From Cyclobacteriaceae bacterium (GTDB lineage: Bacteria > Bacteroidota > Bacteroidia > Cytophagales > Cyclobacteriaceae), in assembly GCA_027533395.1 (NCBI GenBank), contig JAPZUF010000033.1, positions 1-38,838 of the forward strand: a stretch of 38,838 bases of DNA, read 5' to 3'. Below are positions 2,412-19,165 of the stretch, one piece after another (within the stretch, counting starts at the first letter, position 1; each line of letters begins with the position of its first letter). A model generated the notes under the pieces. It had not been told where the DNA came from. It saw only the letters and a program-made list of their open reading frames with translations, and did no database searches. A program made the translations under genes and the position numbers.

Positions 2412-2666
2412 AAAGTAAAATTAATAATGAGTATAAATTAATTACAATACTTTACTGATAAAGAAGCGAAAAGTAAAAAGAAATTATGGTTTAAAGGATA
2501 TGATAGTAGTTAAGCCAATAAAACACTTCTAATCTAAAGCGAAGGCAAAGTGTAATGTTTACTTATTGAAAATAAGAATAGCCGCTCGTATTAAATAAAT
2601 TTGATGTTTAACAGCCTCGTCTTAGCTTAATTTGATAATTGTAATATATGATGAGTGATTTCATTC

Positions 2667-3482
2667 TTAATCTTCCCAAATAAGACTAAGAGCAAACTTT
2701 AAATGAGGCACTAAAACAGCATATTCAAACATAGGTCTGTCTTCTTTTGGCTTAACTTTGAACCATGTTGATTTTTCTATTTGGTCATAAGATTCGATAA
2801 CGTTGAGTTCTTTTTCCTTAAACATTTGGCCGACAACTGAATCTACAGGTGGACTTAAATTACTTGTAATTCTAGGCACATAATCCACCCAACGAGGTAT
2901 ATATGGATGGTCTTTATCAGCCATTGGTTCTGACATTTTCCACCACCTCACTTTGTTATTTATAACGCAAACAATCATTGCATTTTGATTGCTAGCTCGT
3001 ATCCAATTAAGCAAAACATTTTGTATCGTTACTTGAAACTCATCAGAGATGTTTTCAAACAAATTGGGATTTACCTCTTTTCCTTTAATAAAATTTCTAA
3101 AAATTTTCGTTGGCATGAGAAGTTCTGCCGCAAATTCATTTGCCTCTTTTTCATGGCCTCCCATTTTAAACCAATTAAAAAACTTAAGTTGGTTATCACT
3201 TGAATTTTCTAAGTCTTTATGTAATTCATAATGCGCAAGTTCATGCGCGATAACAAATCTTTTCTTCTTCTTATCTCGCATTAAGCTATTTATAGATATA
3301 ATCCCCTGATTATTGGAGAACATAAAACGGCCATCACATGATTTAAGATTTACTTCTTCATAAAAGCAATCTCTGGCAAGTACTAGGTCAGGTAGTGGAA
3401 GTTGGATTAAACTATTAAGAGAGGTAACAAAAAATTTTTTCTGAAGATATTTAGCTTGAGCTTCTGCTTTCGTTATTAGCAT
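2667..3482 (-). CDS. ImmA/IrrE-family zinc metallopeptidase
   Basis: Residues 77-90 carry the zinc-binding HExxH helix as FVIAHELAHYELHK (H80, E81, H84), and the third-ligand region follows as EKEANEFAAELLMP (E113 the likely ligand). This HExxH plus ExxAN-FA-LLMP pair is the signature of ImmA/IrrE (DUF955) proteases, such as ImmA of ICEBs1, which cleaves the repressor ImmR, and IrrE/PprI of Deinococcus, which cleaves DdrO. About 150 C-terminal residues (KVRWWKMSEP onward) may sense a signal or bind substrate. Unlike ImmA or IrrE loci, no XRE repressor is adjacent. Instead the gene overlaps by 32 bases a 151-residue protein that itself follows a sigma factor, so the three are almost surely co-transcribed. 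Family assignment is strong. The substrate is unknown; the 151-residue neighbour is the obvious candidate. Confidence 0.9.
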   Translation of the reverse strand: MLITKAEAQAKYLQKKFFVTSLNSLIQLPLPDLVLARDCFYEEVNLKSCDGRFMFSNNQGIISINSLMRDKKKKRFVIAHELAHYELHKDLENSSDNQLKFFNWFKMGGHEKEANEFAAELLMPTKIFRNFIKGKEVNPNLFENISDEFQVTIQNVLLNWIRASNQNAMIVCVINNKVRWWKMSEPMADKDHPYIPRWVDYVPRITSNLSPPVDSVVGQMFKEKELNVIESYDQIEKSTWFKVKPKEDRPMFEYAVLVPHLKFALSLIWED

Positions 3483-3906
3483 TATTGTTATTATCCTTTT
3501 TTTCTGTTTCTAGTTTTAACACAATATGATTTATAAGAATATCTTTTATTTCTGCATGACTTAATTCATCAAAATTCTTATACGATAATGCTATTTTTTC
3601 TTTTTTGATATAGTCTTCTATTTTAAAATTTTCATTATTTAATAAACCCTCAACAATTGATAAGGCATTTTCATAATTCTTTTTAAGTATATCAACAAAA
3701 GAACTCTGTTTTTTTTGTGCTAATTTTCTTAGAGCTGCATTTCTAATTTTTATCATAGTTTCCTCTGTTAGTTTATCTAACTCAGGATCATTCGCCATGT
3801 ATTTTTCAGGATTCTTTATTTCATCTTGTTCTGAAAGATAATCCATATATAGGTCTAGCCAAAAATCTTCCTTTTCCATACAATTTATCATATCATATTC
3901 TTTCAC
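3451..3906 (-). CDS. Unknown 151-residue protein between sigma factor and ImmA peptidase
   Basis: An acidic, helical, cytoplasmic-looking protein without signal peptide, membrane segment or helix-turn-helix that I can see. The N-terminus is rich in E/D (EKEDFWLDLYMDYLSEQDE), the middle is a predicted long helix (IRNAALRKLAQKKQ), and the C-terminus is an Asn/Ser-rich tail that overlaps the immA-like start. Two further in-frame ATGs lie at 3891 and 3879. The one at 3891 begins one base after the sigma-factor stop and would suit termination-reinitiation. Position alone suggests a partner of the sigma factor (anti-sigma or stabiliser) and a substrate for the downstream peptidase. This is inference; no motif proves it. 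Confidence 0.75.
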   Translation of the reverse strand: MKEYDMINCMEKEDFWLDLYMDYLSEQDEIKNPEKYMANDPELDKLTEETMIKIRNAALRKLAQKKQSSFVDILKKNYENALSIVEGLLNNENFKIEDYIKKEKIALSYKNFDELSHAEIKDILINHIVLKLETEKKDNNNNANNESRSSS

Positions 3907-4495
3907 TATTTTTTATTTTGTCTATTATACGAGTTAGTCTTGCTTTGCCATTATCATAATCTTTAAATGATAAATTGTAGTAATCACAAATTTCAAATCG
4001 ATCACCATATTCAAAACCCTTTTCTGTCCAAGCTTCTAATAAGGTTAGAACTATTGGGTCTTTACTAAAATGATTTTTAAGCAAAGCTATCAGATATTTT
4101 AGTTTATCTATGTAAGATAGCTGTTCAGAGTTAAGTGTGATAAATTCATGGCTTTCACTAGGGGTAACATTGTCGGTTATAAAGTAATCGAAATTAACAC
4201 TTTCTTCAATTAGTTTAACTCGGTTACTAAACTTTTTACTTTTTAATTCATTTTTAATCCTATTTTTTACGACTATCTGTAAAAAGGAGATTGGATTACC
4301 TATATCTAGGTTTACAACAATTTTGCCATCCATTATGTCAAGGAATATATTTTGAACAATGTCTTGTACATCAATCAGATCAGAATTAGTGAATTTCTTT
4401 AAAAAGTAACGCCCCGTATAAAGTAAAGTTTTGGTATACTTTTTTAATTCATCTTCATTTAATTCATTGATAATAAGCAGATTAGGCTTATTCAT
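3893..4495 (-). CDS. Sigma-70-family (ECF-like) RNA polymerase sigma factor
   Basis: I place the start at the ATG at 4495 (MNKPNLLIINELNEDEL), giving 200 residues; the longer frame upstream is hydrophobic and would run across the tnsA leader. Region 2 is recognisable: VQDIVQNIFLDIMDG matches the core-binding 2.2 helix (…DIVQEVF…), and ISFLQIVVKNRIKNELKSKK matches 2.3/2.4, with the pattern of …WL..IA.N...D..R. A C-terminal segment ending DYDNGKARLTRIIDKIKNS looks like the recognition part of region 4. The gene heads a three-gene unit with an unknown protein and an ImmA-type peptidase and is divergent from tnsA with 113 bases between starts. It may direct transcription of island genes. Family is fairly sure; target promoters are unknown. 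Confidence 0.8.
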   Translation of the reverse strand: MNKPNLLIINELNEDELKKYTKTLLYTGRYFLKKFTNSDLIDVQDIVQNIFLDIMDGKIVVNLDIGNPISFLQIVVKNRIKNELKSKKFSNRVKLIEESVNFDYFITDNVTPSESHEFITLNSEQLSYIDKLKYLIALLKNHFSKDPIVLTLLEAWTEKGFEYGDRFEICDYYNLSFKDYDNGKARLTRIIDKIKNSERI

Positions 4496-4608
4496 AAAGG
4501 TTAGGTTTTTAGGGATAAAACATTTATAAAAAAATATTTTCAGGTTCGCGCAAAAAAATGCTTTCTCAATTGAATAGCATATAGAGGCCTCACTAAAAGC
4601 CTCAATTA
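4496..4608. promoter_or_regulatory. Divergent control region between sigma factor and tnsA
   Basis: Both transcription units start from this 113-base gap. It contains a direct repeat, AAAAAAATATTTTC at 4528-4541 and AAAAAAATGCTTTC at 4552-4565, 24 bases apart, which is about two helical turns. It also contains the palindrome GAGGCCTC (4584-4591) with a second GCCTC at 4599-4603, close to the tnsA ATG. No TAnnTTTG element was seen, so promoters here may use the encoded sigma factor. The 24-base repeats could instead be transposase-binding sites. This is inference from layout. Confidence 0.45.
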
Positions 4609-5289
4609 ATGAAAGATAATAAAATATTAAGTACAAGAAAGGTCCATAGTAATGGCATAACCATTACTGGCCTATTTAATGTGCAAAAACTAAAAGGGAT
4701 TCAGTTTGAATCCATACGAGAAGAATCATTTCTCAAGCTTGCTGAAATGGATGTGTCTGTAACGAAAGTTGTTGATCAGCCTGTTAAAATACACTTGGAT
4801 GATTTTAACTACACTCCAGATTTCTATTTAGAATTCAATAATAGAAGACCGGCTTATGTCGAAATAAAAACCGCGGAGTATTTGAAAAAACTGATCAAGT
4901 TTCATCAAAGTAAAGTTGATCAAATAAAAAATTGGTGCCAATTAAGAAATATAGACTTTTACATTATTCCTATTGATAAAATTCCTGAACCTATCATTGT
5001 CAATACTTTTTTTCTATCTGGATACAAGGAGAAAATTGTTGAAAATTCGATTAAGCAACTTATTCTAAAAAAAATAGTTAAGAAAAAAAGTTTTAATCAG
5101 AAACAACTTATTGAAAGTATATCAACTGAAAATTGTATTGACAAAAGGACTTTACTTGTTCAACTATGGTCATTAGCCTCAAGCGATGAAGTGCTAGTTG
5201 ATATGCGTTCCAACATGAACATTTTTACGAAAGTAAAAAGTAAACAGAAAGACAAAAGTAATTTCTTAAAATTTCCATATTATATATGA
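4609..5289 (+). CDS. tnsA: TnsA-like transposon endonuclease
   Basis: The protein has the order of motifs of Tn7-type TnsA: an N-terminal acidic helix (ESIREESFLKLAEMD, E34 to D48), then VVDQPVKI, then YTPDFYLEF (D71) and YVEIKTAE (E85, K87), the D…ExK core of a restriction-like nuclease fold. A C-terminal part (about 140-226) would correspond to the TnsC-contacting winged-helix domain. TnsA nicks the 5' ends of the transposon so that, with TnsB, the element is excised (cut-and-paste). At 226 residues it is a little shorter than Tn7 TnsA. The stop overlaps the tnsB start as ATGA, so the two are translationally coupled. Catalytic residues appear intact. Confidence 0.88.
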   Translation: MKDNKILSTRKVHSNGITITGLFNVQKLKGIQFESIREESFLKLAEMDVSVTKVVDQPVKIHLDDFNYTPDFYLEFNNRRPAYVEIKTAEYLKKLIKFHQSKVDQIKNWCQLRNIDFYIIPIDKIPEPIIVNTFFLSGYKEKIVENSIKQLILKKIVKKKSFNQKQLIESISTENCIDKRTLLVQLWSLASSDEVLVDMRSNMNIFTKVKSKQKDKSNFLKFPYYI

Positions 5290-7163
5290 AGCTAGTACCG
5301 GGCAAGTCAATTCAATATGGTGGAGAATCATGGTTGATTCTGAAAACATTTGGCTCAAAAGAAATTAAAATCAAAAATGAAGTTACTAAGACAGTAACTA
5401 CGATTCCAATAGATGCTATTGATTTACAAAATCAAGTCAGTACTAGTAATAAACAAGATTTGAAAGTGGATCTTCCATTTGATTCTTATTCAGAGTCAAG
5501 TAAAAAAAGAGCTCATAAGAAATTTCAAATTATATCATCCATATTAAATGGAAAAGTTAAGGGTAGAAATGAGATAGAGCAATTAGCCACAGAAAATGAA
5601 GTTTCAGTTGCTAGTATTTATAATTGGTTAAAAGATTACAAAGCATATGGAGGATTACGTGGTCTAATTGATTCTCCTCTTAAGGGTGGTACTAGGTTAT
5701 CAAGAATAAATAAAGACGTAGAAACCATAATGACTGTTTTCGTAAAAAAGTATTGGAAAGGCGGTTCTACTATCGAGTCAGCGTATAGTGAACTAGTTGA
5801 GCATCTTGAAAATTTAAATCAAAGTGCACCTCATATTAATACGTTTAAAAAGCGAATAAGAGAAGTTGATGAAGCTGAGAGAAATTATCACTATAATGGT
5901 AAAAAACATGCTGATGCAAAGTACAAAGCATCACCAGGTAAGATGCCTGATGGAAATTTTCCTCTAGAAATTGTTCAATACGATTCCACACAATTAGACA
6001 TAATATTAGTTGATGGTGAAGGTAATGTTTTGGGAAAGCCTTGGTTAACAATTGGAATTGACACCAAAACAAGATCAGTACTTGGATTTAATACTTCTTT
6101 TGCTGCACCAAGTTTTTTTAACTTAGGAAGAGCGATTTATGTAAGTGTGTTACCTAAAAATAAGTATTTAGATAAGTTAGGTTTAAATGAATACGAATGG
6201 GATAGGTTCGGAAAGCCTAGAGTAATCTTCACAGATAATGGTTCAGATTTTAGAAGTGAGAATTTTCAGGAAATTTGCAAAGCTTATGGAATAACGCAAC
6301 GATACAGGCCAAAAGGTTCACCCAAAACCGGTGGAATGATTGAACGCTATATTGGTACAATTAAAAATTTCTTAAAGGAATTACCAGGTTATACAAAAGT
6401 AGGTGAAGAGAATTTCAGAAATAGAAAACCGTATAAGGAAGCTAGACTTACAATCAAAGAATTTGAGAAATTATTTACTCTTTGGATTCTCACTGTTTAC
6501 CACGTAAAACCGCATTCAGCTCCATCAATGAATAAATTTTCTCCAAATGAGATGTGGCAAAGAGGACTAGATGGTGATGAGCATCAAAATGGCACGGGTG
6601 TTCCAGAAATGATAACTAATCATGATGCATTTAACATCGATCTATTGCCTACTATTTCAAGAACCATTGGTCGTACTGGTGTATCAATTCATGGTCAAAG
6701 ATATTACGTTCCAATTCTTAACAACTTTGTAAACAGAAAAGAAAAGCACTCAGGTGGAAAACTATCAAATAGAAATCAAAAATATGATTTTAAGTTTAAC
6801 CTGTCGGATATCTCATATGTGTACTTTAAAAATCCTGTCACTAAAAAATTTGATCGTATTGAAAATACCGATTTAAAAATTCAAAAGGCAAGGCCATCTC
6901 TTTACGAATACATCCAAGGTAAAAAGAAGATAGAGAACACTCCCGAAAAAGTAAAGCTTAACTCCATTGCTGCTAAGAAGGCTAGATCGAGTTTAAAAAA
7001 AACTGCTGAATCGCTGGGTTTCAGAAAGTCCAGAGAAATTAAAAAGGAACAAATTGAAAAAACAAGAGTTGAATTCCCACCGAGTTCTACTCCTAAAGTT
7101 CAAACGATTCAGCATGATGAACCTCAAATAAAAATTATTCCATTCGAAACAAAAAGAAATTAA
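5286..7163 (+). CDS. tnsB: TnsB-like DDE transposase
   Basis: A 625-residue transposase of the Tn7 TnsB / Mu MuA type. The N-terminal third contains helix-turn-helix DNA-binding segments, for example EIEQLATENEVSVASIYNWL. The RNase-H-like catalytic core carries D233 (VQYDSTQLD), D317 (FTDNGSDF) and E353 (GGMIERYIG), the last two separated by 35 residues as in DDE35 enzymes of the rve family. A beta-barrel (RYYVPI) and a basic C-terminal tail follow; the tail is the part that usually contacts TnsC. TnsB binds repeats in the transposon ends and makes the 3' cuts and strand transfer. All three catalytic residues are present, so the enzyme looks functional. It overlaps tnsA by 4 bases and is 3 bases from tnsC. 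Confidence 0.92.
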   Translation: MKLVPGKSIQYGGESWLILKTFGSKEIKIKNEVTKTVTTIPIDAIDLQNQVSTSNKQDLKVDLPFDSYSESSKKRAHKKFQIISSILNGKVKGRNEIEQLATENEVSVASIYNWLKDYKAYGGLRGLIDSPLKGGTRLSRINKDVETIMTVFVKKYWKGGSTIESAYSELVEHLENLNQSAPHINTFKKRIREVDEAERNYHYNGKKHADAKYKASPGKMPDGNFPLEIVQYDSTQLDIILVDGEGNVLGKPWLTIGIDTKTRSVLGFNTSFAAPSFFNLGRAIYVSVLPKNKYLDKLGLNEYEWDRFGKPRVIFTDNGSDFRSENFQEICKAYGITQRYRPKGSPKTGGMIERYIGTIKNFLKELPGYTKVGEENFRNRKPYKEARLTIKEFEKLFTLWILTVYHVKPHSAPSMNKFSPNEMWQRGLDGDEHQNGTGVPEMITNHDAFNIDLLPTISRTIGRTGVSIHGQRYYVPILNNFVNRKEKHSGGKLSNRNQKYDFKFNLSDISYVYFKNPVTKKFDRIENTDLKIQKARPSLYEYIQGKKKIENTPEKVKLNSIAAKKARSSLKKTAESLGFRKSREIKKEQIEKTRVEFPPSSTPKVQTIQHDEPQIKIIPFETKRN

Positions 7164-7166
7164 TTT

Positions 7167-8036
7167 ATGCAACATTTAACAAAAGCAACACAAGAATTCC
7201 TAAGTCAAAAACCAGATAAGAATCAATTATTAATGTATTTAGATGAAGATGTCTGGATCAATTACGACATATCAGTAAACTTACTAAATGAAATTTTAGC
7301 ACTTGCAGATGCTAAAAGAAAGCACAGGATGATGAGCATGGCCATTGCTGCTCCACCAAATAATGGCAAAACTTCATTGATAAAAGAAGTTTGTAAAGCA
7401 AAGAAAAAGATTATCAATCCATCAGGAATTGTTTGTCCTGTTATTTCAGCTGAACTTACAAGCAATGTTGACTTAAGAACATTTCTTAATTTAATTAATA
7501 AAGCTATAAACGGGGCAGTTCATTATCCTCAGAAATTAGATAGCCTCCGTGATCATGTTTTAGATTGTTTGTTAAGGTACCAAGTTAAGCTAATTATTAT
7601 TGATGAAGTGCAACTTTTAGCTAACCTAACAACTAAAAGGTTAAGAATGATTTTAGATGAAATGAAGACGATTTCAAATATTGCTCAAGTTTCATTTGTT
7701 GTTTTTGGGTCTGATGAATTAGATGTTATCTTTTCTTATCACCCACACATTAGAAGCAGATTTGTTTTAAGGAATCTTCCGGAATGGCAATATAATGAAG
7801 CTTATTTAAGATTACTGGCTACAATTGAAAGTGAATTACCTTTTTCTGAATCTTCTAATCTTACGAAAAAGGAAACTGCTCTACTGATTCTGGAAAAAAC
7901 GAATGGTACAATTGGTGAGATTTTATCTGTGTTAAAAGAATTGGCAACTATTGCTATACATGAAGGAAAGAATTGCATCGATGTTTTAGATATTCCAAAG
8001 TTAAATTTTCAAACCGCAAAGCCACATTTAAATTGA
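7167..8036 (+). CDS. tnsC: TnsC/TniB-like AAA+ ATPase
   Basis: An AAA+ ATPase of the TnsC/TniB type: Walker A is AAPPNNGKTS (61-70, with G67 K68 T69), Walker B is LIIIDEVQLL (142-151), and FVVFGSDELD followed by SRFVLRNLPEW fits sensor 1 and the arginine-finger region. TnsC forms rings on DNA and passes the target signal from the target selector to TnsA/TnsB. At 289 residues it is near the short TniB/TnsC lengths seen in compact Tn7-like elements rather than the 555 residues of Tn7 TnsC. The stop is overlapped by the next gene, so a physical partner is likely encoded there. Confidence 0.87.
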   Translation: MQHLTKATQEFLSQKPDKNQLLMYLDEDVWINYDISVNLLNEILALADAKRKHRMMSMAIAAPPNNGKTSLIKEVCKAKKKIINPSGIVCPVISAELTSNVDLRTFLNLINKAINGAVHYPQKLDSLRDHVLDCLLRYQVKLIIIDEVQLLANLTTKRLRMILDEMKTISNIAQVSFVVFGSDELDVIFSYHPHIRSRFVLRNLPEWQYNEAYLRLLATIESELPFSESSNLTKKETALLILEKTNGTIGEILSVLKELATIAIHEGKNCIDVLDIPKLNFQTAKPHLN

Positions 8037-8893
8037 AGCGTAAAATTAAGAATAATATCTCGCCAACTATAAAAACAAATGTTAATGGTATTAATACATT
8101 GTTATCCTTGTTTCATGAGGTTGTCAATACCACTGACCATAAAATTGTTTTTAACAAAAAACGTATTTACGATTTTGATGGAAATTTATTTTGTATATAC
8201 GCATACATCGCAAACCATTATGTTAAAAGGAATAATCACCTGCATATATGGCCAACAAACAATTGCTCTGTTAATGCTTTTATGGAAAAGAACTTATTTG
8301 GTTGTACTTCCAATTTTGATTTGATTTTGGCGAATAAATTGTTTTTAGATTGTTCTCGCGTATTCCAAAATGAAAAACAAGATAGATTATCCTTTCTTTC
8401 TTTTTTAACTCATGATCTTATAAAGCAAGAATGGAAATCTACTTTGCCTTACCATTACATTACCCGAATTAAAAAGTTTCTAAAATTGTATTGGGATTTA
8501 ACAATAGAACAAAGTGATATTGGCAATTTGTTAGTGGGGTGTAGCTTTTGTGACGAAATTGTAAGCATAACCATGATTGACACAAGTTTCGATTTAACAA
8601 AATATGCGAATGCATTTAGCCTAAGATCCAACAACGATTATGATGCACTGAAGTGGTTATTGGTTAATGCCTTTTTGAAATCGAAACTTCAAAAGTTGTT
8701 TTATTCCTTTAAAATGTATTGTCAAAAAAATGAAGGAACATTAACAGTGTATTCAGGAAATTATGCTTTGAGTATAAATAAAGTTGGAGAATATCAAATA
8801 AGCGAAACAACCGTGCCGGTTACTGGATTATTAGTAAGTTTTACAATAAAAACAGAAATGATTGAGTTTGAAGACTATGCGATAGCGGCCTAA
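8033..8893 (+). CDS. Unrecognised fourth gene of the tns operon, candidate target selector
   Basis: I place the start at a TTG at 8033 that overlaps the tnsC stop as TTGA, giving 286 residues. The ATG at 7973 would give 306 residues with a 64-base overlap and is the alternative. I do not recognise the family. The protein is rich in Phe, Leu, Asn and Lys, has one CxxC (CSFCDE) but not the repeated zinc-finger pattern of TniQ/TnsD, has no tyrosine-recombinase or Cas-like motif, and no membrane segment. Its position directly after tnsC is where tniQ or tnsD normally stands, so a role in target choice or TnsC binding is a reasonable guess, not shown. Its stop lies 7 bases from the stop of the converging SIR2 gene. 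Confidence 0.8.
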   Translation: MKRKIKNNISPTIKTNVNGINTLLSLFHEVVNTTDHKIVFNKKRIYDFDGNLFCIYAYIANHYVKRNNHLHIWPTNNCSVNAFMEKNLFGCTSNFDLILANKLFLDCSRVFQNEKQDRLSFLSFLTHDLIKQEWKSTLPYHYITRIKKFLKLYWDLTIEQSDIGNLLVGCSFCDEIVSITMIDTSFDLTKYANAFSLRSNNDYDALKWLLVNAFLKSKLQKLFYSFKMYCQKNEGTLTVYSGNYALSINKVGEYQISETTVPVTGLLVSFTIKTEMIEFEDYAIAA

Positions 8894-8900
8894 CAACGAA

Positions 8901-10187
8901 TTAAAAAGGGCGCTCCCTATTCCTCAAACTTTCATATTCTGAAATTAAGTTTATAAATATTTTACCACCATTATTGAAATACTTTTCAAAAAAACTTTTT
9001 GTCCCTGTTGGCAAAAATTCTAATGATTCAGCATTTATTTTCTTGATATTAAATTCGGGCAATTCAGAGTAAAAAGAATTTTTCTGAATGTCCTCAATGT
9101 AGTTTGCGAGATTTTTGTCCGAGATGCCATCGGGATATTGTATTCTTAAAAAATCGTCCTTTGTTAAGAGTTGATTTCCTTTAACCGTCTCAGTTTTTAA
9201 TTGTTCAGGTCCAAATATTGGATTAACGATGATTAATTTTTTAGACGTGCCTTTTACTGCATCAATTAAGAGATTGTTTATATATGGGTCAAAAAAGCTA
9301 TATCCAATTACAAAGATGTAACTCTTGTCTTTTAACTTGCTTCTGAAATGTTGTATCAATGTAAAGAATGGCTCAACTGAAAATGTCTTTGTTCCCTGAC
9401 CAAATATTAAGTAAGGTGAATGCTCATCTTCAATATGCCCTTTTTCTTGTTCGTCTAATTTTTCTTCCTCTTTAAATTCCCCGCTATCAAGTCTTACCCA
9501 ATCCAAAGAACCGTGAAGTTTGTAAAGGTTAATTCTTCCAAAGTCATTTGGTATTTCTTCTTCTTCAAATCCTCTCCACTCTCCGCTAACAAATCCTCTC
9601 CAAGGCTTATTATGATTTTCCGTAAAATAGTTTTCAAGCACCATATCATTATTCAATGAAAAAATATCCATTCTAAATGGCTCATTAGGATAATGTTGTA
9701 GAAAGTCTTTAAGAGGTGATAGAAATGTGTAGTTATTTGGGGTTAACCATTCCCGTATTAGTTTTGATTTAATTTTTCTGTCTAATGAACCAAAAAGAGA
9801 ATCACCATACTTTTCTGATTCAGAAAGAGAATCAAACTCTGATTCTAAAAGAACAAGTTTGTCTGCCCAGTTTCCTGTAATAGGGTAGGGCAAAAAGTTT
9901 TCTCTGTTTTTAACACGTCTAATCAACAAGGCAAGTTCTTCAATATTAGGTATGAATTTGAAGTTCTCTGCTGTTTCAAGTGTTCTCCATTCACTATGAT
10001 ACTCAAGACAAGAGAGTAGAAACTTTAATGCTTCCTTTTCAGGCTTGTTAAAGGTGTCATCATCTTTGCTGCTAATTCTTCTTTTCAAGTCTTCTAACAT
10101 ACCATAGGACAACTTGCAGCCTGAATCATATGATGCACCAGCACCAAAGAAGAAAAGACTTTTATTTACTGCATCAGTTATGTTCAT
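8901..10187 (-). CDS. SIR2-domain NADase-like effector paired with the Argonaute
   Basis: The N-terminal half and more is a SIR2 (SIR2_2-type) domain: the nucleotide-binding loop FFGAGASYDSG (GAGAS at 15-19), the N/D motif FSLNNDMVLE (N179, D181), the catalytic-type histidine in LYKLHGSLDW (H225), and the late motif VIGYSFFDPYINNLL (G295 to D300). In bacterial immunity such domains hydrolyse NAD+ when triggered and stop growth of the infected cell. No APAZ region is visible and the protein is only 428 residues, which differs from the SIR2-APAZ fusions that go with short Argonautes. About 100 C-terminal residues are unassigned. It starts 3 bases after the Argonaute stop, so the two are coupled. 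Key residues are present, so I expect an active NADase. Confidence 0.88.
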   Translation of the reverse strand: MNITDAVNKSLFFFGAGASYDSGCKLSYGMLEDLKRRISSKDDDTFNKPEKEALKFLLSCLEYHSEWRTLETAENFKFIPNIEELALLIRRVKNRENFLPYPITGNWADKLVLLESEFDSLSESEKYGDSLFGSLDRKIKSKLIREWLTPNNYTFLSPLKDFLQHYPNEPFRMDIFSLNNDMVLENYFTENHNKPWRGFVSGEWRGFEEEEIPNDFGRINLYKLHGSLDWVRLDSGEFKEEEKLDEQEKGHIEDEHSPYLIFGQGTKTFSVEPFFTLIQHFRSKLKDKSYIFVIGYSFFDPYINNLLIDAVKGTSKKLIIVNPIFGPEQLKTETVKGNQLLTKDDFLRIQYPDGISDKNLANYIEDIQKNSFYSELPEFNIKKINAESLEFLPTGTKSFFEKYFNNGGKIFINLISEYESLRNRERPF

Positions 10188-10190
10188 AGT

Positions 10191-12209
10191 TTACAAAAAC
10201 CACGGTGTATTATTAACCGTATCATTATTTGGTAATTCACCGTTATAATTAGCTGTAAATTCTGCTATTAATTTTGAATAAATCGTAGTAGCTGGTTGGC
10301 TTCTTTGCTTTAAACCTTTCCAATATAGCCTTGAAAATTCATATACTTGACTAATGAGGTCTCGGTGAGAGAAACCACCAGTATCAGCAAAATGAATTGA
10401 AATTTTTATTGGTAATTCTTCTGCTACACTTCGTAAAGGATTCTTTTGATAACGAGTGTTATTAAAAAGTAGATATTCTGTTTTACTAACCCTCACGTAT
10501 GTTCCGCTTTCAGGCATCCCCGTTGAAAAATCTTTATCAAAGCAAATGTCCATTTGAGATTTACTGTCGTTGATTTCTACAATTGCAAATGGAATATTTA
10601 ACCTTAATTCCTTTTGAATTAAATCTTCAATAGATTTTTGCTCCTTGCCGCTTTGAGGTTTATAATAGTGAATTACCAATCTTTCAGGTGGCAATTCCTT
10701 TTGACTTATAAATTGTTCTATTGCAGATTTTAAATTTCCTATAAGTGCTGTTTCGGAATTTGTTTCAGGAAATCCAAATGTTTTGCCAAGTTGACCATCA
10801 TTTGAAAAGAATACTGCACTACCAATAAACTGATGTTCACCAATAGTCTTTTGATTAAACCCAATTACTAATTCATCTGTTCTTTTCGTTTTTAAACGCC
10901 AAGGAATACCACCAAGTTTTGCTAAAATTCCGATTGAAATATTCGGAAGGAAGTAATGAAAACTGCCTGAGTGAATATTCTTATCCTGAATAAATTGAGT
11001 GGGAATACCCTTTTCTAAGAACTTCCGTTTTATAGTGTAATAAGTTGGGTCCTCGTTTTCATCAAGTTCCTCTTTTTCTTGACTGCTATTTGGATTGATT
11101 ACGATTACAAATAAATCACTGTAATATTCATTGTTTAAATTTTCTGAAATGAAATTATCAATTTTGTTTTTCAAATCTTCTGTGCCGTTATACTGCAATT
11201 TTATATCCGATAATCTAATCGGTATGCCGACATAACTCCATAAACCCGGATAATGCTTTAGACCATTTTTTAAATAAAGATAAAGTTGGTTAGCATCTCT
11301 GCTATTTTCATAAACAAAAATGAATTTTACATCAGTAGCTTTTGGGGATGGTTTATAAATGCCATAGTCTCGCATTCCAGTAACAGCATTTATATCTGTT
11401 TTCTCTTTCCCAAAGAGCATAAGGTTTTCATTGATGTTTACCTTGTTTAAATCTGTTAGGTCAACATTTTTTAAGCCTCCTGCTTCAATTTTAAAATTCT
11501 CTTTGTCAATTGATAATAGATGATTGTTGTAAAAATTTACCAACTGATTGTATAAGGTATTGTAGTTAAATTTTCTAGGTTCGGTGCTGATTCCTAATTC
11601 GTCTCGTTTTTGCTTATTAGCAACTATTCTGCAATTATTGACTCCCTCTTTTCCTGCAAGAGGTTTAACAAAATTGTCTTTAGTATCAATAATTCTGATT
11701 TTATCCGTTGAATGAAATTGCTTTGTTTGATTACTTATTATAGTCTTTTCGCTGCCAATATTAAATGCAATCTCTTTTCTGTGAGTTCGCACTAATAAAT
11801 CATATCTTCTATAGATACTCCAATCATTATTAAAATCATCGATTTTCTCATAAACGCTTAGGTCTTTGCCTTTTGGAAATGGTTCAACAAGAAAGTTTCG
11901 TGCTTTGAAAAAGTTTATTATTTGTTCTCTAACAAACTTAGCTTTGAAATAATTGAAGGGATAATTTTCAGGTTTGATTGTTAGGAAGTCATTGAAAGTT
12001 GGCGGAGTGAAGCTATAATAAATATAATCTTCATCCTTCAATTCCTTTAACCAATTTAAAAGTGTATCGTCTTTTAATCTATTTGATAGGCGTTGCTTAA
12101 AATGTATAAATTGCATCCTGAAAATTAAATTGTCAATTTTCGACAAGTAAAGATTCGGATGCTCCTCTGACAAAATATAATTTACTCTATTTATAATAAG
12201 GTTCGTCAT
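10191..12209 (-). CDS. Prokaryotic Argonaute, long type with inactive PIWI
   Basis: I use the ATG at 12209 (672 residues); a TTG lies three codons upstream. The N-terminal ~280 residues hold an N/PAZ-like part, including YDLLVRTHRKEIAFNIGSEK. The MID domain (about 290-440) keeps the 5'-end pocket: Y390/Y391, K394, Q405 (GIPTQF) and K431 (ILAKLGGIPW). The PIWI domain (about 445-672) has lost its catalytic acids: the first Asp position reads IGFN (N452), the second reads IHYYKP where active enzymes have a RDG-like motif, and the last region reads PATTIYSKL without Asp. It should bind guide and target but not cut. Size and domain set fit the long-B class, whose members work with separate effectors; the adjacent SIR2 gene is such an effector. 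It follows hsdS by 15 bases. Confidence 0.88.
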   Translation of the reverse strand: MTNLIINRVNYILSEEHPNLYLSKIDNLIFRMQFIHFKQRLSNRLKDDTLLNWLKELKDEDYIYYSFTPPTFNDFLTIKPENYPFNYFKAKFVREQIINFFKARNFLVEPFPKGKDLSVYEKIDDFNNDWSIYRRYDLLVRTHRKEIAFNIGSEKTIISNQTKQFHSTDKIRIIDTKDNFVKPLAGKEGVNNCRIVANKQKRDELGISTEPRKFNYNTLYNQLVNFYNNHLLSIDKENFKIEAGGLKNVDLTDLNKVNINENLMLFGKEKTDINAVTGMRDYGIYKPSPKATDVKFIFVYENSRDANQLYLYLKNGLKHYPGLWSYVGIPIRLSDIKLQYNGTEDLKNKIDNFISENLNNEYYSDLFVIVINPNSSQEKEELDENEDPTYYTIKRKFLEKGIPTQFIQDKNIHSGSFHYFLPNISIGILAKLGGIPWRLKTKRTDELVIGFNQKTIGEHQFIGSAVFFSNDGQLGKTFGFPETNSETALIGNLKSAIEQFISQKELPPERLVIHYYKPQSGKEQKSIEDLIQKELRLNIPFAIVEINDSKSQMDICFDKDFSTGMPESGTYVRVSKTEYLLFNNTRYQKNPLRSVAEELPIKISIHFADTGGFSHRDLISQVYEFSRLYWKGLKQRSQPATTIYSKLIAEFTANYNGELPNNDTVNNTPWFL

Positions 12210-12224
12210 TATTGTCAAATTTAG

Positions 12225-13349
12225 TTAATTCCCAACTCCCCCCCTAAACGCCTTTTGGCTTAAACTGCCATACAAATTCTCCAACTCCTGCAAGCTTTGT
12301 TGGTATTGAGTTTTGAGAACTTCTGTTTTTTCTACGATTTGGGCAAATTGGGTTTGGAGTTCCAGAGGTGGAACTGGAATTTTTATCTCTTTAATGCTAG
12401 TTAGACTTAGAAATGTTCTTACTGTATCGGTAATTTTCTTTCTAAATTGACTTTGAACTATGTTGCTATTAATGCAATACTCTAAAAATATTGGCTCAAC
12501 TTTAGATTTATCAGGTGTTATTTTATTGAAGTTTTGGGACATTGTTGCACGTGGTAAGGTTGGTGGAATCAAGAGTGCTTTACCAGATGAACCAACAGCT
12601 ATAATTACAACATCATTTGGTTTTACTTCGCTTCGTTTTAATTCAATCGCCTTTTCTTCGCTAATGTATTTTATATTGCTTAAGTCCAATTTGCCTGAGG
12701 TTATATTGGTTCCTCGTAAAATAGTAACGCCAGTATCTGTATAGTGCTGTGACGTTAGATTTGAACCAAAAGGGCCACTTGATAATGCATATTTTTCTTT
12801 ACTTGCTACTTCCTCAATAAGTTCCCATTCGAAATTTTGACCATTCCCAAACAGCTCCCAAAACGTGCTTTTCAAAAATTCATCCAGCAGGCGGATGCTT
12901 TCTTTGCGTTGGGCTATCAGGCTTTCAGCTTTGCTGAGGATGTTGGCGATGTGGAGTTGGTCGGAATAGTCAGCTACCGGAAGTTTTTTTTCTTTCAAAT
13001 ACTTGAAGTGCCTACTATAACCTTTGTCAACAATCTTAATTGATTTGAGAAAGTAGTAATAAAAAAGTGCATTGTCTTTCTTGTTTTTTAAGGTCAGAAC
13101 TTTTACACCATCAGCTCCAATTGTAAAAGGGAAATCAACATACTTAAATATTTTGGTGTGGTCACCGAATATGATTACGGGAAGATTTTCTGTGACTACA
13201 AGGTTTTCATCATCTGTATAACCACCTATAAATGCTTGACCTTGGTCAATAATTGGAAATATTCCGACATTCTGATAGTCTTCTTTTTTCACTTTCGTGA
13301 AATTAGATGTAGAATCCTTAAAAATGTTTTCAAATAGCTCAAACTTCAT
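12225..13349 (-). CDS. hsdS: Type I restriction-modification specificity subunit HsdS
   Basis: A 374-residue HsdS with the two-fold layout of the family: target recognition domain 1 (about 1-115), a conserved helical spacer (DQLHIANILSKAESLIAQRK, 130-150), target recognition domain 2 (about 175-310), and a second matching helical spacer (LELQTQFAQIVEKTEVLKTQ). SSGPFGSNL and KIPVPPLELQ are typical HsdS phrases. The helices bind two HsdM copies and set the distance between the two half-sites. The first domain is on the short side. The start overlaps the hsdM stop by one base (TAATG). The recognition sequence cannot be read from the protein. The next gene downstream is the Argonaute, an unusual neighbour in the same unit. 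Confidence 0.93.
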   Translation of the reverse strand: MKFELFENIFKDSTSNFTKVKKEDYQNVGIFPIIDQGQAFIGGYTDDENLVVTENLPVIIFGDHTKIFKYVDFPFTIGADGVKVLTLKNKKDNALFYYYFLKSIKIVDKGYSRHFKYLKEKKLPVADYSDQLHIANILSKAESLIAQRKESIRLLDEFLKSTFWELFGNGQNFEWELIEEVASKEKYALSSGPFGSNLTSQHYTDTGVTILRGTNITSGKLDLSNIKYISEEKAIELKRSEVKPNDVVIIAVGSSGKALLIPPTLPRATMSQNFNKITPDKSKVEPIFLEYCINSNIVQSQFRKKITDTVRTFLSLTSIKEIKIPVPPLELQTQFAQIVEKTEVLKTQYQQSLQELENLYGSLSQKAFRGGVGN

Positions 13350-14914
13350 TACATCAACTCTTTTAATTCAGCTAATCTCTTTTGAATATCCGCTTCCATG
13401 CTTTCCAATTTTCCTAAAATCACATTCGGCTTTTCATACACCACTTCTTCATACACTTCTTCTTTGTAGGTGCTCAGGTTTAGGTCGTAGTTATTTTCTA
13501 CAATTTCCTTTTTCGGCACCATAAAGTATTTCTGCTTTCTATCGCTGTCTTTTTTGGCATCTCTGGTTTTGTAGCGTTGCACAATGTCGGGCAAGTCGCT
13601 TTCTGTAATTTTATTTCGCTTGTCGTCTAAGGTGTAGCCATCAGCTTGCATATCATAAAACCAAATTTGGTTTGTTTCTCCGCCTTTGGTAAAAATCAAA
13701 ATAGCTGTGCTTACACCTGCATAAGGTTTAAATGCTCCGCTGGGCACAGCAATCACGGCTTTCAGTTCAGCCTTTTCAATGATCAACTTCCGCACGGCTT
13801 CAAATGCCTTTCCACTGTTTTGTATCACACCACTGGGCACAATTACAGCAGCCGTTCCGCCCATTTTCAGCATATTAAAAATACGTTCTACAAACAGCAG
13901 CTCAGTTTTGGTGGTGGGCAGTTTCAGCCCTTCGTTAATATCGCCTTTGTCAATGTTACCTGTAAAAGGCGGGTTCGCCATGATAATATCGAACTGGCTG
14001 TCTTCGTTGTAAGTTTTGCTTAACGTGTCTTTATAATCAATTTTGGGTTCGTCAATACCGTGCATCATCATGTTCATCAAACCCAAACGCACCATCGTGG
14101 TGTCAATATCATAACCCACAAAACTTTGGTCGAGTATTGATTTTACTTTTTGCGTTAAAACGGCACTGATGGCAGCACGTTCAAAACCATCTTCGTCTTT
14201 GCTCAGTTTGGCAGGGTCTTTCTTGCGAACTAAATCAGTGAGAATGTATTGATACGAACCCAACAAGAAACCGCCTGTTCCGCAAGCAGGGTCGGCAATG
14301 CGTTGCCCTAATTGCGGAGCCACCAATTCAGCCATCAGTTTAATAATGTGCCTTGGCGTTCTGAACTGTCCGTTTTTACCAGCCGTTGCAATTTCACTCA
14401 ACAGCATTTCATACACATCACCTTGTATGTCCTGAAAAGCATGACCGCCTTCGGTGGCATCCTTTTCAATTTCTTTAAAAATATCTTCCACAATGTTGAT
14501 GGCAGAAACCAACAAACTGGCTTTGGGCATAATGAACACCGCATTTGCCATGTGTTTGGTAAATGTTGATGTTTCTCCGTTTAGGTCTTTCAAAAACGGA
14601 AACACTTTCATTTGCACATGCATCAGCATTTCGTCTGCGGGCTTGTGTTTGAACACACTCCAGCGCAATTCGTTTTTATCGATGCTTTCGTTGCTGCCCG
14701 GAATTTGAAATTTGCCTTTGAAACGGCTGGTATATTTCTCGCCTGTAAACTCTGCATCTCTTTCACGTTTGGCTTCCAAATCGTCCAAACGCTTCATAAA
14801 AATGAGATAGGTAATTTGTTCAATAGCCGTTAATGGATTGGCAATACCACCTTCCCAAAAGTTCTGCCAGAGCTTGTCTATAAGCGATTTTAATTGTGTG
14901 TTGTTTTGTAACAT
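13349..14914 (-). CDS. hsdM: Type I restriction-modification methyltransferase HsdM
   Basis: A 521-residue N6-adenine methyltransferase subunit. The N-terminal HsdM helical domain (LKSLIDKLWQNFWEGGIANP) is followed by the SAM-binding motif I IADPACGTGGFLL and the catalytic motif IV DIIMANPPFTGN. Residues after about 480 are helical (LGKLESMEADIQKRLAELKE), the part that packs against HsdS. With HsdS it methylates adenines in a bipartite site to protect host DNA. Full length; all motifs present. The coding DNA is visibly richer in G+C than the Argonaute gene in the same operon: two sample rows at 14281 and 14341 give 57% and 43%, against 32% for the row at 10981. Confidence 0.95.
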   Translation of the reverse strand: MLQNNTQLKSLIDKLWQNFWEGGIANPLTAIEQITYLIFMKRLDDLEAKRERDAEFTGEKYTSRFKGKFQIPGSNESIDKNELRWSVFKHKPADEMLMHVQMKVFPFLKDLNGETSTFTKHMANAVFIMPKASLLVSAINIVEDIFKEIEKDATEGGHAFQDIQGDVYEMLLSEIATAGKNGQFRTPRHIIKLMAELVAPQLGQRIADPACGTGGFLLGSYQYILTDLVRKKDPAKLSKDEDGFERAAISAVLTQKVKSILDQSFVGYDIDTTMVRLGLMNMMMHGIDEPKIDYKDTLSKTYNEDSQFDIIMANPPFTGNIDKGDINEGLKLPTTKTELLFVERIFNMLKMGGTAAVIVPSGVIQNSGKAFEAVRKLIIEKAELKAVIAVPSGAFKPYAGVSTAILIFTKGGETNQIWFYDMQADGYTLDDKRNKITESDLPDIVQRYKTRDAKKDSDRKQKYFMVPKKEIVENNYDLNLSTYKEEVYEEVVYEKPNVILGKLESMEADIQKRLAELKELM

Positions 14915-14922
14915 CTATCTTA

Positions 14923-15267
14923 CTATGTATTGAACTTGTGAATATTAAGTGACTTTAGAAATCTATCTATTTTAACAGCTTCTTCTTTTGAGCTTGTTTC
15001 GATTGTTCTATAATCCAAATCACTCCAATGGCTTAAAACATAAACCCTTTTATCTTCATTGTTTCTGGTTCCAGTTCCATATGGTTTTGGAAAGAAGGAT
15101 TTCATCCTCTTTTGACAAGTTTTGCTCTCACCAAACTGAATAAATTCCTTTGTTTTCCTATTTCTAATTTGATATACACCTGAGTCTTTAGGGCCTTCTA
15201 TTAATCTACAGTTTTCTGGCGAAGGCATTGCCTTCCATTCACTCCATTTTAAGTCTTCCATTTTCAT
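14923..15267 (-). CDS. Small GIY-YIG-like protein inside the hsd operon
   Basis: A 114-residue protein whose ATG directly follows the hsdR stop. Residues 29-55 read SGVYQIRN … FIQFGESKTCQKRM, which fits the GIY-YIG nuclease fold: GVY for GIY (30-32), FG (45-46) for the YIG strand, and R54 in the following helix. A later helix SKEEAVKIDRFL is where the catalytic Glu of the family is expected; here the matching position looks like Asp101 or shifted E96/E97. The YIG tyrosine is Phe. It may be a weak or non-catalytic nuclease-like protein, perhaps a DNA-binding or anti-restriction helper. Family is suggested by pattern only. Confidence 0.65.
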   Translation of the reverse strand: MKMEDLKWSEWKAMPSPENCRLIEGPKDSGVYQIRNRKTKEFIQFGESKTCQKRMKSFFPKPYGTGTRNNEDKRVYVLSHWSDLDYRTIETSSKEEAVKIDRFLKSLNIHKFNT

Positions 15268-18057
15268 CTATGCCGCTAATACTTGTTCAGTTAAACTTAA
15301 AATTTCGTCAATCTCTTTTTGATTGAAAATTCCTCTTATTCCTTCGGGATGAAGCATGGTAAAAGGAGATTCAATCAGGTTTCGTTTACTCACATCACCT
15401 TTTTCCAATACAAAGTTTTTGAGCAAGTCCAAAAATTGCAGTTGTCGGCTAGTGAGGTAACTATGTTTGGCAATAAAATCATCAAATGTTTTGGTAACTG
15501 TTTCGGCAAAAGTTTCTAATTGCTCAATTCCTAAAATATGTTTGATGAATTGCACCAATGCCGCTTTGCGGTGGTTATAAACCTTGCGAAGCAAATCAAT
15601 GGTAATATGCGGATGCTCGTTGTGTAATTCTTCTGCTAATTGTTCGGCTTCATCCGTAGTGATTTCCTGTCCTTGTTTTAGTTTTTGTAAAATCGGACTG
15701 CTTGAAACCAGTTCATTGATTTTCTTTTCTACCAATTCACGGTATTTGGCTACACTCAACGCTTCGTGTTGCGGTCCAAACTCAACAAATTCTTTTTCAG
15801 CAACAATGTCTTTCAGGTTGAATTTTGCAGGAGCTAACGGAATAACCACTTCACGAAATTTCATCAATGGTGAAAGTTTCTGAATCAATTCTTCAAACTT
15901 TTCTTCATTTATGGTTGACCAAAAATGATTGCTTTGTGCTTGTCGAATCAATTCTTGTTCTCTTGCTACAATGTTAATGCTCAAAGGAAGTTCACCAATT
16001 TCTTCAATGATGCTTTCTTTCAGTGTTTCAAACTTTTCGGTTTCACCTGCCAAGTGTGCCAAAGAAACTTCAACAATATCTTTTTCAAATCGCATGGCTT
16101 TGAAATCAACATCTGAAACCGTACGAAGCAAGGGTTTTACCACTGCTTCTAAAAATTCCATTTTGTCAGAAGTCAAGTTGTTCCAAAAGTTTTCATCTTC
16201 TAAACGTTGCAATTCATGCTTAGCTTCCATGATTACAACTGAATGTTGAGGAAGTACTTCAACTTGTTTTCTGATTTTCAGGACTTCCTTATCTACAATT
16301 TCTGAATTGCTCTGTGTTCTGGCTTCTTCAATCTTTTCCAATCGCACACCAAACAAGCGAACAGGTAAAGGAATCTGTCCTTTCAGTTCTTTTCCTCTTG
16401 GATTGAGTTTGAAATACTCAAAATTGTCCCAACAATCGAGAATCAGAAAGTTATCTTTTTGAGTGCACCACGGTTTAATTTTTTCAGGTTCGAGTAAACG
16501 AGTTCCTCTGCCTATCATCTGCCAAAACTTGGTGTAGCTGTAAACGGGTTTTGCAAAAACTAAATTCACCAATTCACGAACATCAATTCCTGTGTCGAGC
16601 ATGTCCACACTTATAGCAATACGTGGCATGTCGTTACTCACAAACTGGTCGAGCAAACCGCCTTTGCCGTAAACTCTTGGGTCTTCACTTATCAATACTT
16701 TAGCTAATTCGCCTTTGTATTCGGGATAAAGTGAATCAAAGATTTCTTCAACTCGTCTTGCATGGGCTTTGCTGATGCAAAAGAAAATCGTTTTGCCTGG
16801 CAAAACACCGTTAGCATCTTTGATGCTTTCTTCCATGAATTCTCGGACAATCAAAGCATTCGTTCCTCTGTTGATTACCTTTTTTTCAATCTCTGTTCCC
16901 TCGTAATTGATTTCTTCAATTTCCTTTCCTTCCAACATGAGTTTCTGTTGGTCTTCCAAAGTAATTGTTCGTTTGTTTATTCCTTCGTCCTGAAATTTGG
17001 TTTTTATTTTCATTACCTGAAAATTGCTCAGGTAGGGTGGGACATGGTTGACTGCTTCTTCATATGAATAAGCAAAAGTTGGAACACCATCTTCGCATTC
17101 AAACAATTGAAACGTGTTGTGGTCAATTACATCTGTTGGCGTGGCTGTTAAGCCAAGCGTAATGGTATTGAAGTAGTCAAGAATTTCCTGATAGGTATTG
17201 TAAATGCTTCGGTGGCTTTCGTCCACCACAATCAAGTCAAAGAAATGCGGACTTAATGATTTTTCTTCATTGCGTATTACGTTCAACATGGTCGGATAAG
17301 TTGAAACATAAATCCGTCTGTCGGTGGCAATTTCTTTTTCTCCTTGTTTAGGCCAGCGTGGTTCGTTTGGTAAATGCTCTTTGAATGCATCCAATGTTTG
17401 GTCACGAAGTGCAATTCGGTCCACCAAGAATAAAACCCTTTCTGCCCAACCTGCTCTCATTAATGCGTCAACCAAAGCAATGCAAGTTCTTGTCTTGCCT
17501 GTGCCTGTCGCCATTACCAACAAGAATTTGCGTTTCCGTTTTTCAACGGCTTCCATCACCGCACGGATTGAAGCAATCTGATAATTCCGTCCTGCAATTT
17601 TGGTATTGATAAGTTCACCTGCTAATTGCTTTCTCGCTTTGCGGATATGGGAATAGCGTTCAAGGTCGTCACGTGTCGGAAAGCCATAGACTTTTTTTGG
17701 TGGATAGTTGTCTAAGTCCCAAAAGTAAATGTCGTGCCCATTGGTATAAAAGCAAAAAGGCAAGTCAATCCCTTGTGTCTGTTTGATGTTGTAGCAATAT
17801 TGTTTGGCTTGTTCTCTTCCGAGTGCAGCGTCTACCGAAGTCTTTTTGGCTTCAACAACTGCAAGCGGTTTGCCGTCTTTGCCCAACAAAACATAGTCGC
17901 TGTATTGGTGTCCTGCGTATGGTGTTGCCGGTTCTTCTACAACTGTCAAGTGAATATCAAATTCCTCAATCACCTGAGTTCGGTCAGTCACATTCCAGCC
18001 CGCTTGTTTTAAGCGGTCGTCAATGATTTCTTTCCTTGTCAGTTTTTCGTTCTTCAC
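15268..18057 (-). CDS. hsdR: Type I restriction endonuclease subunit HsdR (EcoEI-like)
   Basis: A 929-residue translocase-nuclease. The N-terminal PD-(D/E)xK nuclease is seen as SDYVLLGKDGKPLAVVEAKK (D54, E69, K71). The superfamily 2 helicase motor has Walker A MATGTGKTRT (about 182-191), DESH box VVDESHRSIY, motif III LGLTATPTDV, and motif VI WQMIGRGTRL. The C-terminus (about 640 onward) is helical and corresponds to the EcoEI-type HsdR C-terminal domain, which ties it to the HsdM/S complex. It cuts unmodified DNA after ATP-driven translocation. The start is a GTG at 18057, with no better start nearby. It is the first gene of a six-gene minus-strand operon. All key motifs are present, so it should be active. 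Confidence 0.95.
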   Translation of the reverse strand: MKNEKLTRKEIIDDRLKQAGWNVTDRTQVIEEFDIHLTVVEEPATPYAGHQYSDYVLLGKDGKPLAVVEAKKTSVDAALGREQAKQYCYNIKQTQGIDLPFCFYTNGHDIYFWDLDNYPPKKVYGFPTRDDLERYSHIRKARKQLAGELINTKIAGRNYQIASIRAVMEAVEKRKRKFLLVMATGTGKTRTCIALVDALMRAGWAERVLFLVDRIALRDQTLDAFKEHLPNEPRWPKQGEKEIATDRRIYVSTYPTMLNVIRNEEKSLSPHFFDLIVVDESHRSIYNTYQEILDYFNTITLGLTATPTDVIDHNTFQLFECEDGVPTFAYSYEEAVNHVPPYLSNFQVMKIKTKFQDEGINKRTITLEDQQKLMLEGKEIEEINYEGTEIEKKVINRGTNALIVREFMEESIKDANGVLPGKTIFFCISKAHARRVEEIFDSLYPEYKGELAKVLISEDPRVYGKGGLLDQFVSNDMPRIAISVDMLDTGIDVRELVNLVFAKPVYSYTKFWQMIGRGTRLLEPEKIKPWCTQKDNFLILDCWDNFEYFKLNPRGKELKGQIPLPVRLFGVRLEKIEEARTQSNSEIVDKEVLKIRKQVEVLPQHSVVIMEAKHELQRLEDENFWNNLTSDKMEFLEAVVKPLLRTVSDVDFKAMRFEKDIVEVSLAHLAGETEKFETLKESIIEEIGELPLSINIVAREQELIRQAQSNHFWSTINEEKFEELIQKLSPLMKFREVVIPLAPAKFNLKDIVAEKEFVEFGPQHEALSVAKYRELVEKKINELVSSSPILQKLKQGQEITTDEAEQLAEELHNEHPHITIDLLRKVYNHRKAALVQFIKHILGIEQLETFAETVTKTFDDFIAKHSYLTSRQLQFLDLLKNFVLEKGDVSKRNLIESPFTMLHPEGIRGIFNQKEIDEILSLTEQVLAA

Positions 18058-18931: not shown

Positions 18932-19023
18932 TATCCTCACTTCACTCTAAGCAACTACTGTCAAAACTCCATCCAACTAGTGTGATTTCTAGTTAACTAA
19001 TGTAATTCACAGAATTTCAATTT

Positions 19024-19043
19024 CCCACCACTTTCTCCCACCA
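19024..19043 (-). promoter_or_regulatory. Possible second, inverted MraZ box cluster
   Basis: On the minus strand this reads GGTGGGAGAAAGTGGTGGG, with GTGG units 10 bases apart, like the boxes at 19131-19154 but inverted and about 100 bases further from mraZ. It may be an extra MraZ site or chance. Confidence 0.35.
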
Positions 19044-19128
19044 TCTTTTTTCCTTTTAAACCCTTAAATGTGGGGTTTTTAGCTCTTTTTTATTCAAAAT
19101 TTAATCAAATTAACCTCAAAATGTAAAA

Positions 19129-19156: not shown

Positions 19157-19165
19157 AAACTTTCT

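Follow-up and report, generated by a model that had tools for sequence, protein, structure and literature searches.

How does a Tn7-like transposon reach its target when its transposition operon carries no TniQ-family adaptor? The question is raised by a contig of 38,838 nucleotides from a Cyclobacteriaceae bacterium (JAPZUF010000033.1 of assembly GCA_027533395.1; this whole stretch is hereafter called the window), in which genes for TnsA, TnsB and TnsC are followed by a gene for a 286-residue protein, here called X. Comparison with related loci points to a family of Tn7-like transposons whose TniQ/TnsD gave way to X, a domesticated STAS-GHKL protein, a reading to which we assign a probability of roughly one half. 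It is carried by the constancy of X across eight distinct elements, by the likeness of X to STAS-GHKL proteins and by the insertion of these elements at one site upstream of mraZ.

The protein in the TniQ slot

The core of the locus is an operon of four genes:

4609-5289, + strand: tnsA, endonuclease (Pfam PF08722, TnsA N-terminal domain, 9e-9; D71/E85/K87)
5286-7163, + strand: tnsB, DDE transposase (rve 4e-7; D233/D317/E353; within the X clade of the TnsB tree)
7167-8036, + strand: tnsC, AAA+ regulator (TniB PF05621, 3e-32)
8033-8893, + strand: X, predicted STAS-GHKL protein in the TniQ slot, ATP-binding motifs lost (hhalign, SpoIIAB-like fold, motif table)

Open reading frames, Pfam matches and catalytic residues agree on an intact tnsABC with a fourth gene at these coordinates, as the initial annotation of the window had proposed, and the combination of TnsA, a DDE-type TnsB and an AAA+ TnsC in one operon is that of Tn7-like elements. 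The tnsA, tnsB and tnsC reading frames have no internal stops, and the rve match of TnsB lies slightly below the Pfam threshold (30.7 bits versus a cut-off of 32.6). The annotation had also considered all catalytic motifs that it could check intact, which holds for the TnsA and TnsB residues listed above and for Walker B of TnsC (IIIDE), but not for Walker A (A-PPNN-GKT), where alanine replaces the first glycine. The coupling of tnsC to X by a TTGA overlap was borne out at 8033-8036, and the TTG start of X fits the N-termini of its homologs.

Pfam gives no match for X up to E 10, and a sequence search of solved structures returned nothing useful. As the annotation had noted, nothing in it resembles a recombinase (TnsF), TnsE or Cas domain, at least by match to Pfam, NCBIfam or PADLOC. 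The profile-profile search and structure prediction proposed at that stage both point to a STAS-GHKL protein. In hhalign comparisons, five X proteins aligned with seven stand-alone STAS-GHKL proteins at 99.9% (E 8e-32, full length covered), and the window X alone reached 89% (E 2e-6), while X against four TniQ proteins gave 0.1%. The predicted structure (pTM 0.73, mean pLDDT 68, low over the first 110 residues) has the GHKL fold rather than that of TniQ: the 50 Foldseek matches listed are to Hsp90, SpoIIAB, CheA and similar proteins, with a best E of 1.3e-3 and none at E≤1e-3, and those to SpoIIAB have probabilities of 0.99-1.00 and TM-scores of 0.53-0.57 by target length. For the N-terminal part, a STAS match (2e-4, slightly under the cut-off) was found in the stand-alone relative L045, and the X profile alignment spans that region, in which the window X has low pLDDT. 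Because of the profile comparisons and the SpoIIAB-like predicted fold, we class X with the STAS-GHKL proteins rather than with TniQ; in this it recalls the SpoIIAA/SpoIIAB switch pair. The hhalign value, the missing Pfam match and the GHKL fold together rule out the strongly diverged TniQ that the annotation had offered as one possibility.

The motifs of the fold are eroded in X. The GG-x-GL lid, present in 10 of 14 stand-alone proteins, is absent from all eight X proteins; D-x-G-x-G is kept in seven of them and the N-box glutamate is lost in four. The window X lacks all three motifs, and its relatives behind tnsC show GHKL motifs that the window copy lost. Some stand-alone proteins occur in a three-gene module of a STAS-GHKL ATPase, a STAS-like protein and a PIN protein (L042 9803-11650, L043 9517-11342 and L056 7959-9805, from Bacteroidota and a Deinococcus plasmid), the gene names being annotated in L056 and given by likeness in L042 and L043.

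A search of 196 family genomes with X returned, besides itself, two distant relatives, both directly after tnsC in tnsABC operons, and genome contigs scanned with the window X yielded none. Scanning genome contigs with TnsB yielded 80 loci (of 88 relatives), five of which have X after tnsC (L057, L058, L059, L065 and L082); in the nearest relatives, L060 and L061, TniQ fills the same slot. By a profile search of 390 family genomes, 34 were matched, giving eight distinct elements with a full X, all in Bacteroidota: the window, G033, G122, G582/G610, G583/G758, G674, G664 and G645, the paired handles being counted as one by their identical coordinates. Among the 34, neighbourhoods were inspected for a minority of the weak matches (G132, G584 and G009) and for G017 and G082, and no tns genes were found in these. 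Further copies comprise an X-fragment remnant in G652, a second X in G674 with an internal stop, and L082, a ninth copy that was left out of the count (99.7% identical to the G582 core over 7.7 kb). In a plasmid search, the window X had no match and the G122 X one stand-alone relative.

Both trees place these copies together. The eight X-linked TnsB proteins form one clade against 16 TniQ-linked rows (100/99), in a tree that took 18 of the 75 non-X loci and in which, for at least five of the 16 TniQ rows, TniQ precedes tnsA instead of following tnsC; likewise, the eight X proteins form one clade against 14 stand-alone proteins (100/100). Only TnsA, TnsB, TnsC and X are present in all eight elements, the M78 protease described below following in six, and the sigma-like and small proteins in five (ORFs of at least 80 aa, BLAST 1e-5; the window element taken as 2600-18931, those of G033 and G645 not fully delimited). 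With X in eight of eight elements, TniQ in its place in the nearest relatives and three X genomes without TniQ, the notion that a fourth protein of unrecognised kind takes the place of TniQ holds.

A single attachment site upstream of mraZ

The limits of the elements were read from related copies. L058 and L082 share a common 7.7-kb core with differing DNA on both sides, which exposes the left end; the right end lies 29.3 kb away. Both ends were located in five elements (22-40 kb), all with TGT...ACA termini, TnsB-type site arrays and a 5-bp target duplication: G582 (29,303 bp, GATTT), G122 (27,878 bp, GAAAA), G583 (21,924 bp, ATTTC), G674 (32,486 bp, ATTTA) and G664 (40,337 bp, CAAAA). For G033, the right end alone was located.

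Wherever the flank is assembled, the X-side end adjoins mraZ. From this end to the mraZ start codon the distance is 118 bp in G033, 119 bp in G122 and G645, 120 bp in G583 and G664, and 128 bp in G674, and for remnants it is 115 bp in G652 (X fragment) and 127 bp in G065 (right end only), that is, 115-128 bp at all eight sites measured outside the window lineage (six elements, two remnants). The G582 contig ends 41 bp outside the element, with a flank that matches the mraZ site. On the opposite side of the element, a redoxin-family gene was found in G122, G582 and G674. Repeat insertion also occurs, L082 lying beside the end of another copy and G664 beside a G645-type end, in both cases a newer element set directly against the end of an older one. 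Comparing the insertion sites of related TnsABC-X operons, as had been proposed at the outset, thus shows a common attachment site roughly 120 bp upstream of mraZ, the gene towards which the elements turn their X-proximal end. The stretch from the insertion point to mraZ contains AAAGTGG repeats like known MraZ sites; MraZ of Mollicutes is described as binding direct repeats AAAGTG[T/G] (PMC8475190).

The same region is recognisable in the window:

18857-18931, no strand: right end of the X element (e2), terminus at 18931, first TTGGACT site about 21-27 bp inside, layout as in other X-element ends
18932-19011, no strand: end of a different element (e1), 80 bp, between the X element and the mraZ region, terminus TGTGAATTACATTAG; also upstream of mraZ in G104
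19012-19203, no strand: target region, mraZ promoter with AAAGTGG repeats and inverted copies farther upstream (by sequence; MraZ motif AAAGTG[T/G], PMC8475190)
19204-19647, + strand: mraZ, first gene of the dcw cluster (Pfam MraZ 4e-29; 74% identical to the G122 mraZ)

The dcw cluster runs from mraZ to ftsZ at 33508-35064 (Pfam MraW 2e-99, FtsZ 3e-48), the genes in between being named from their sequences. Likeness to other X ends and the lack of any other end in between suggest that the e2 end belongs to the window tnsABC-X. The window lineage is also at mraZ but off the usual spacing. Since e1-type ends lie upstream of mraZ in two genomes (window 18932-19011; L170 1081-1170), the site seems to serve more than one transposon family.

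Only the right end of the window element is secure, and no target duplication was confirmed. A search of the window for inverted repeats returned solely 74-bp insertion-sequence repeats and short chance matches, and an end-plus-duplication scan gave eight weak candidates, none of which was accepted. A second e2-type end lies at 35796-35860, past ftsZ and on the opposite side of the dcw cluster from 18931, where it interrupts an ORF (35336-35803) that has no Pfam match and that we take to be hydrolase-like. When the genome was searched with the 18-base e2 terminus (up to 3 mismatches allowed, reversed pattern as control), the copy at 35796 was the one other close match (1 mismatch), the remainder having 2-3 mismatches and being about as frequent as with the reversed control. 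The copy at 35796 is preceded by CATCC and the right end at 18931 is followed by TATCC; two collapsed copies or a rearrangement could account for this second end.

How the site may be chosen

The part of adaptor or selector would fall to X, since no other family besides TnsABC was seen in every element and X occupies the slot of TniQ. TnsA, TnsB and TnsC would cut and join as in Tn7, and X would take the role of TniQ, contacting TnsC on one side and, on the other, a target-bound component at the mraZ promoter, which may be the AAAGTGG DNA, host MraZ bound there, or Y, a small protein of the element. Since the lid motif is absent in all eight copies, X probably acts by docking to other proteins, the mode in which SpoIIAB-type domains engage their partners, rather than by ATP hydrolysis. 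Timing of operon expression is probably controlled by a divergent trio of genes upstream of tnsA:

2667-3482, - strand: M78 (ImmA/IrrE-type) metallopeptidase, CapP-like (Pfam PF06114 8e-17; PADLOC capP 7e-51), family in 6 of 8 elements including the window
3451-3906, - strand: small trio protein, family in 5 of 8 elements including the window
3893-4528, - strand: degenerate ECF-sigma-like protein (TIGR02985 2e-5, under the cut-off), family in 5 of 8 elements including the window, with an additional weak match in G664

The pairing of a CapP-like protease with a sigma-like gene suggests damage- or stress-controlled expression. As a target reader, the sigma-like protein was set aside as weakened: the G033 stretch searched yielded no trio, the sigma matches of the protein are weak and its model is poor (pTM 0.37), having sigma factors as the top seven fold matches (E 0.06-0.4) and many ferritins ranking below.

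To the extent that genomes can tell, the elements make up a Tn7-like family that carries no TniQ and yet homes to a fixed site. The new kind of target selector that the initial annotation envisaged is supported at the level of sequence: one insertion site, with no TniQ in the operon, is seen in the sequences, while a role of X itself in reading or bridging the target is what we infer.

Several points weigh against the replacement of TniQ by X. Y is specific to X elements among the loci compared, which makes it a candidate DNA reader instead of X. Pfam searches found TniQ elsewhere in five X genomes (four matches in the window genome, two each in G583, G674 and G645, three in G664). In the tree, the two stand-alone proteins closest to X, L210 and L211, are near-copies of each other and do not have the exact GG-x-GL lid either, which means that the lid may have been lost before the transposon arose. 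In G674 (G674:C1:704725-707816, L202) the tnsC ORF is truncated and lies about 1.6 kb before X, and this copy may be inactive; the window copy may be decaying, as its X and TnsB sit on long branches. Finally, the right end of the window element (e2, 18931) is 272 bp from the mraZ start with the e1 end in between, and in G104, of the same genus, the e2 end is 171 bp from mraZ.

The first of the alternatives, which we consider unlikely, is that Y reads the target DNA and X merely bridges, or that Y alone selects while X regulates TnsC. Y occurs in seven of eight elements, adjoining X or near the right end (six by BLAST, G033 by a profile built without G033, E 4e-6), as well as in the G652 remnant, and is absent at E<0.1 from all 75 non-X loci in the TnsB scan, within the sequence stretches available; the first such test had used a profile including the G033 row and was repeated without it. 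Further, the window, the sole element without a visible Y, is also the one off the usual spacing. Against this, Y (e.g. L013:12837-13289, + strand) is short (116-165 aa), highly variable and without a match to a known family, in Pfam or otherwise, and neither a sequence search of solved structures (nothing useful) nor the plasmid search (zero matches) added to it. The window element, moreover, is still at mraZ without a visible Y, though an insertion sequence probably cuts off its left part.

A narrower version of the adaptor reading, in which X recognises MraZ on its own promoter repeats and hands the nucleoprotein to TnsC, is doubtful at present; such host-regulator-guided targeting, if true, would mean that a transposon takes its cue from a protein-DNA complex of the cell-division operon and not, as others do, from a DNA sequence or a guide RNA. 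Comparably improbable is X as a regulatory switch, an anti-sigma factor or a brake on TnsC that acts together with the sigma-like protein and the CapP-like protease, with target choice intrinsic to TnsC/TnsB. The SpoIIAB-like fold, the sigma-like gene divergent to tnsA in five of eight elements and the CapP-like protease would fit such a switch. However, in G033 no trio turned up within a stretch of about 24 kb beyond tnsA, and yet G033 keeps X and the same spacing, X occupies the TniQ slot, and we know of no case in which TnsC alone yields a fixed site.

Very little speaks for a TniQ acting in trans. The initial annotation had allowed for a separate tniQ elsewhere in the genome; the window genome does hold four, two beside a tnsC of their own and two without a detected tnsC nearby, and some TniQ is present in five of the eight genomes with X. 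G033, G122 and G582, however, gave no match in the Pfam TniQ genome searches, which already contradicts the idea; completeness is listed as 100% for G033 and G122 and 98% for G582 (taken as G610 by identical coordinates). Because of these missing matches, the X elements appear to need no TniQ in at least three genomes. Nor does TniQ track X, since the X-less relatives G140 (one) and G164 (two) carry TniQ as well, and so do other genomes with remnants only or no X (G652 six, G065 one, G104 two). No TniQ was found beside tnsABC-X in any locus of the family examined. A custom TniQ profile over the 80 TnsB-scan loci found TniQ in 48, X in five and neither in 27; as it was built from four sequences and their first 180 residues, absence by it is weak, and it is the genome searches with Pfam that decide the matter. 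Large TniQ genes (about 480-625 aa) were observed without a detected tnsC nearby in L002 and L004 (window genome C14, C16), and in pairs 2-6 kb apart in G645:C17, G652:C1 and G664:C5. That X is unrelated cargo chancing to follow tnsC is barely credible, even though stand-alone STAS-GHKL proteins do occur as cargo-like genes, such as the two near X within the G664 element (G664:C9:346706-347524 and 347807-348679; L206), and is ruled out by its presence at the same place in all eight elements, in a single clade, overlapping tnsC or starting within about 30 bp of it in seven.

Cargo of the window element and relation to known systems

Beyond the operon, defence genes make up the cargo of the window element:

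8901-10187, - strand: SIR2 protein of a SIR2-Argonaute pair (PADLOC Aga_SIR2 8e-75)
10191-12218, - strand: prokaryotic Argonaute (Piwi 5e-14; PADLOC pAgo 6e-115)
12225-18057, - strand: type I restriction-modification, with HsdS 12225-13349, HsdM 13349-14914 and HsdR 15268-18057 (PADLOC Specificity_I, MTase_I, REase_I)

The extent originally given for the locus, 4609-8893, thus covers the operon core, and the trio (2667-4528), the cargo (8901-18057) and the right end at 18931 are assigned to the element as well. Inverted repeats of 74 bp bound the contig on both sides (1-340 and 38698-38838), the left one following an apparent transposase piece without a Pfam match that we take to be IS1182-like; the left part of the element is probably cut off at this repeat or insertion sequence.

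TniQ/TnsD is described as ubiquitous in the Tn7 branch by Faure et al. 2023 (PMC10293859), who looked for new selectors in genes that share an operon with TniQ/TnsD. According to Benler et al. 2021, 73-97% of the elements in each clade have tnsD, and elements without detected TniQ were therefore already known; the word mraZ does not appear in the main text of that paper. By title, within a limited literature collection, no paper was found on Tn7 with mraZ, or on TnsC with GHKL, HATPase or anti-sigma proteins. The X family would show that the TniQ adaptor is replaceable, bring a new protein class into transposon targeting and add the mraZ promoter to the attachment sites, and its homing to one spot before the cell-division cluster suggests that transposons have a new means of locating safe sites. 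The defined site, the compact elements and the TniQ-bearing relatives that can serve as controls make the minimum that TnsC needs at a target directly testable.

The X family resembles Tn7 and Tn7-like elements (TnsABC with TnsD/TniQ) in the catalytic residues of TnsABC, the TGT ends with TnsB-type arrays, the 5-bp duplications, the use of one safe attachment site with repeat insertion there, and the defence cargo. It differs in having a STAS-GHKL protein instead of TniQ/TnsD in the operon, and in its site upstream of mraZ, in place of one beside glmS, comM or tRNA genes. From the stand-alone STAS-GHKL genes, to which X is related over its full length, it is set apart by the lid that most of them keep and by their other gene neighbours. 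With the SpoIIAB/SpoIIAA partner switch X shares the GHKL fold and, judging by its relatives, perhaps a STAS-like N-terminal part, but X would fuse both in one protein, without the ATP lid and inside a transposition operon. The loss of motifs in X resembles the inactivation of enzymes recruited as Tn7-like target selectors, for example TnsF of Tn6022 as described in PMC10293859; in both, an enzyme-derived, catalytically inactivated protein would serve target choice, TnsF being a dead tyrosine recombinase that works with TniQ, whereas X is a GHKL relative in an operon from which TniQ is missing.

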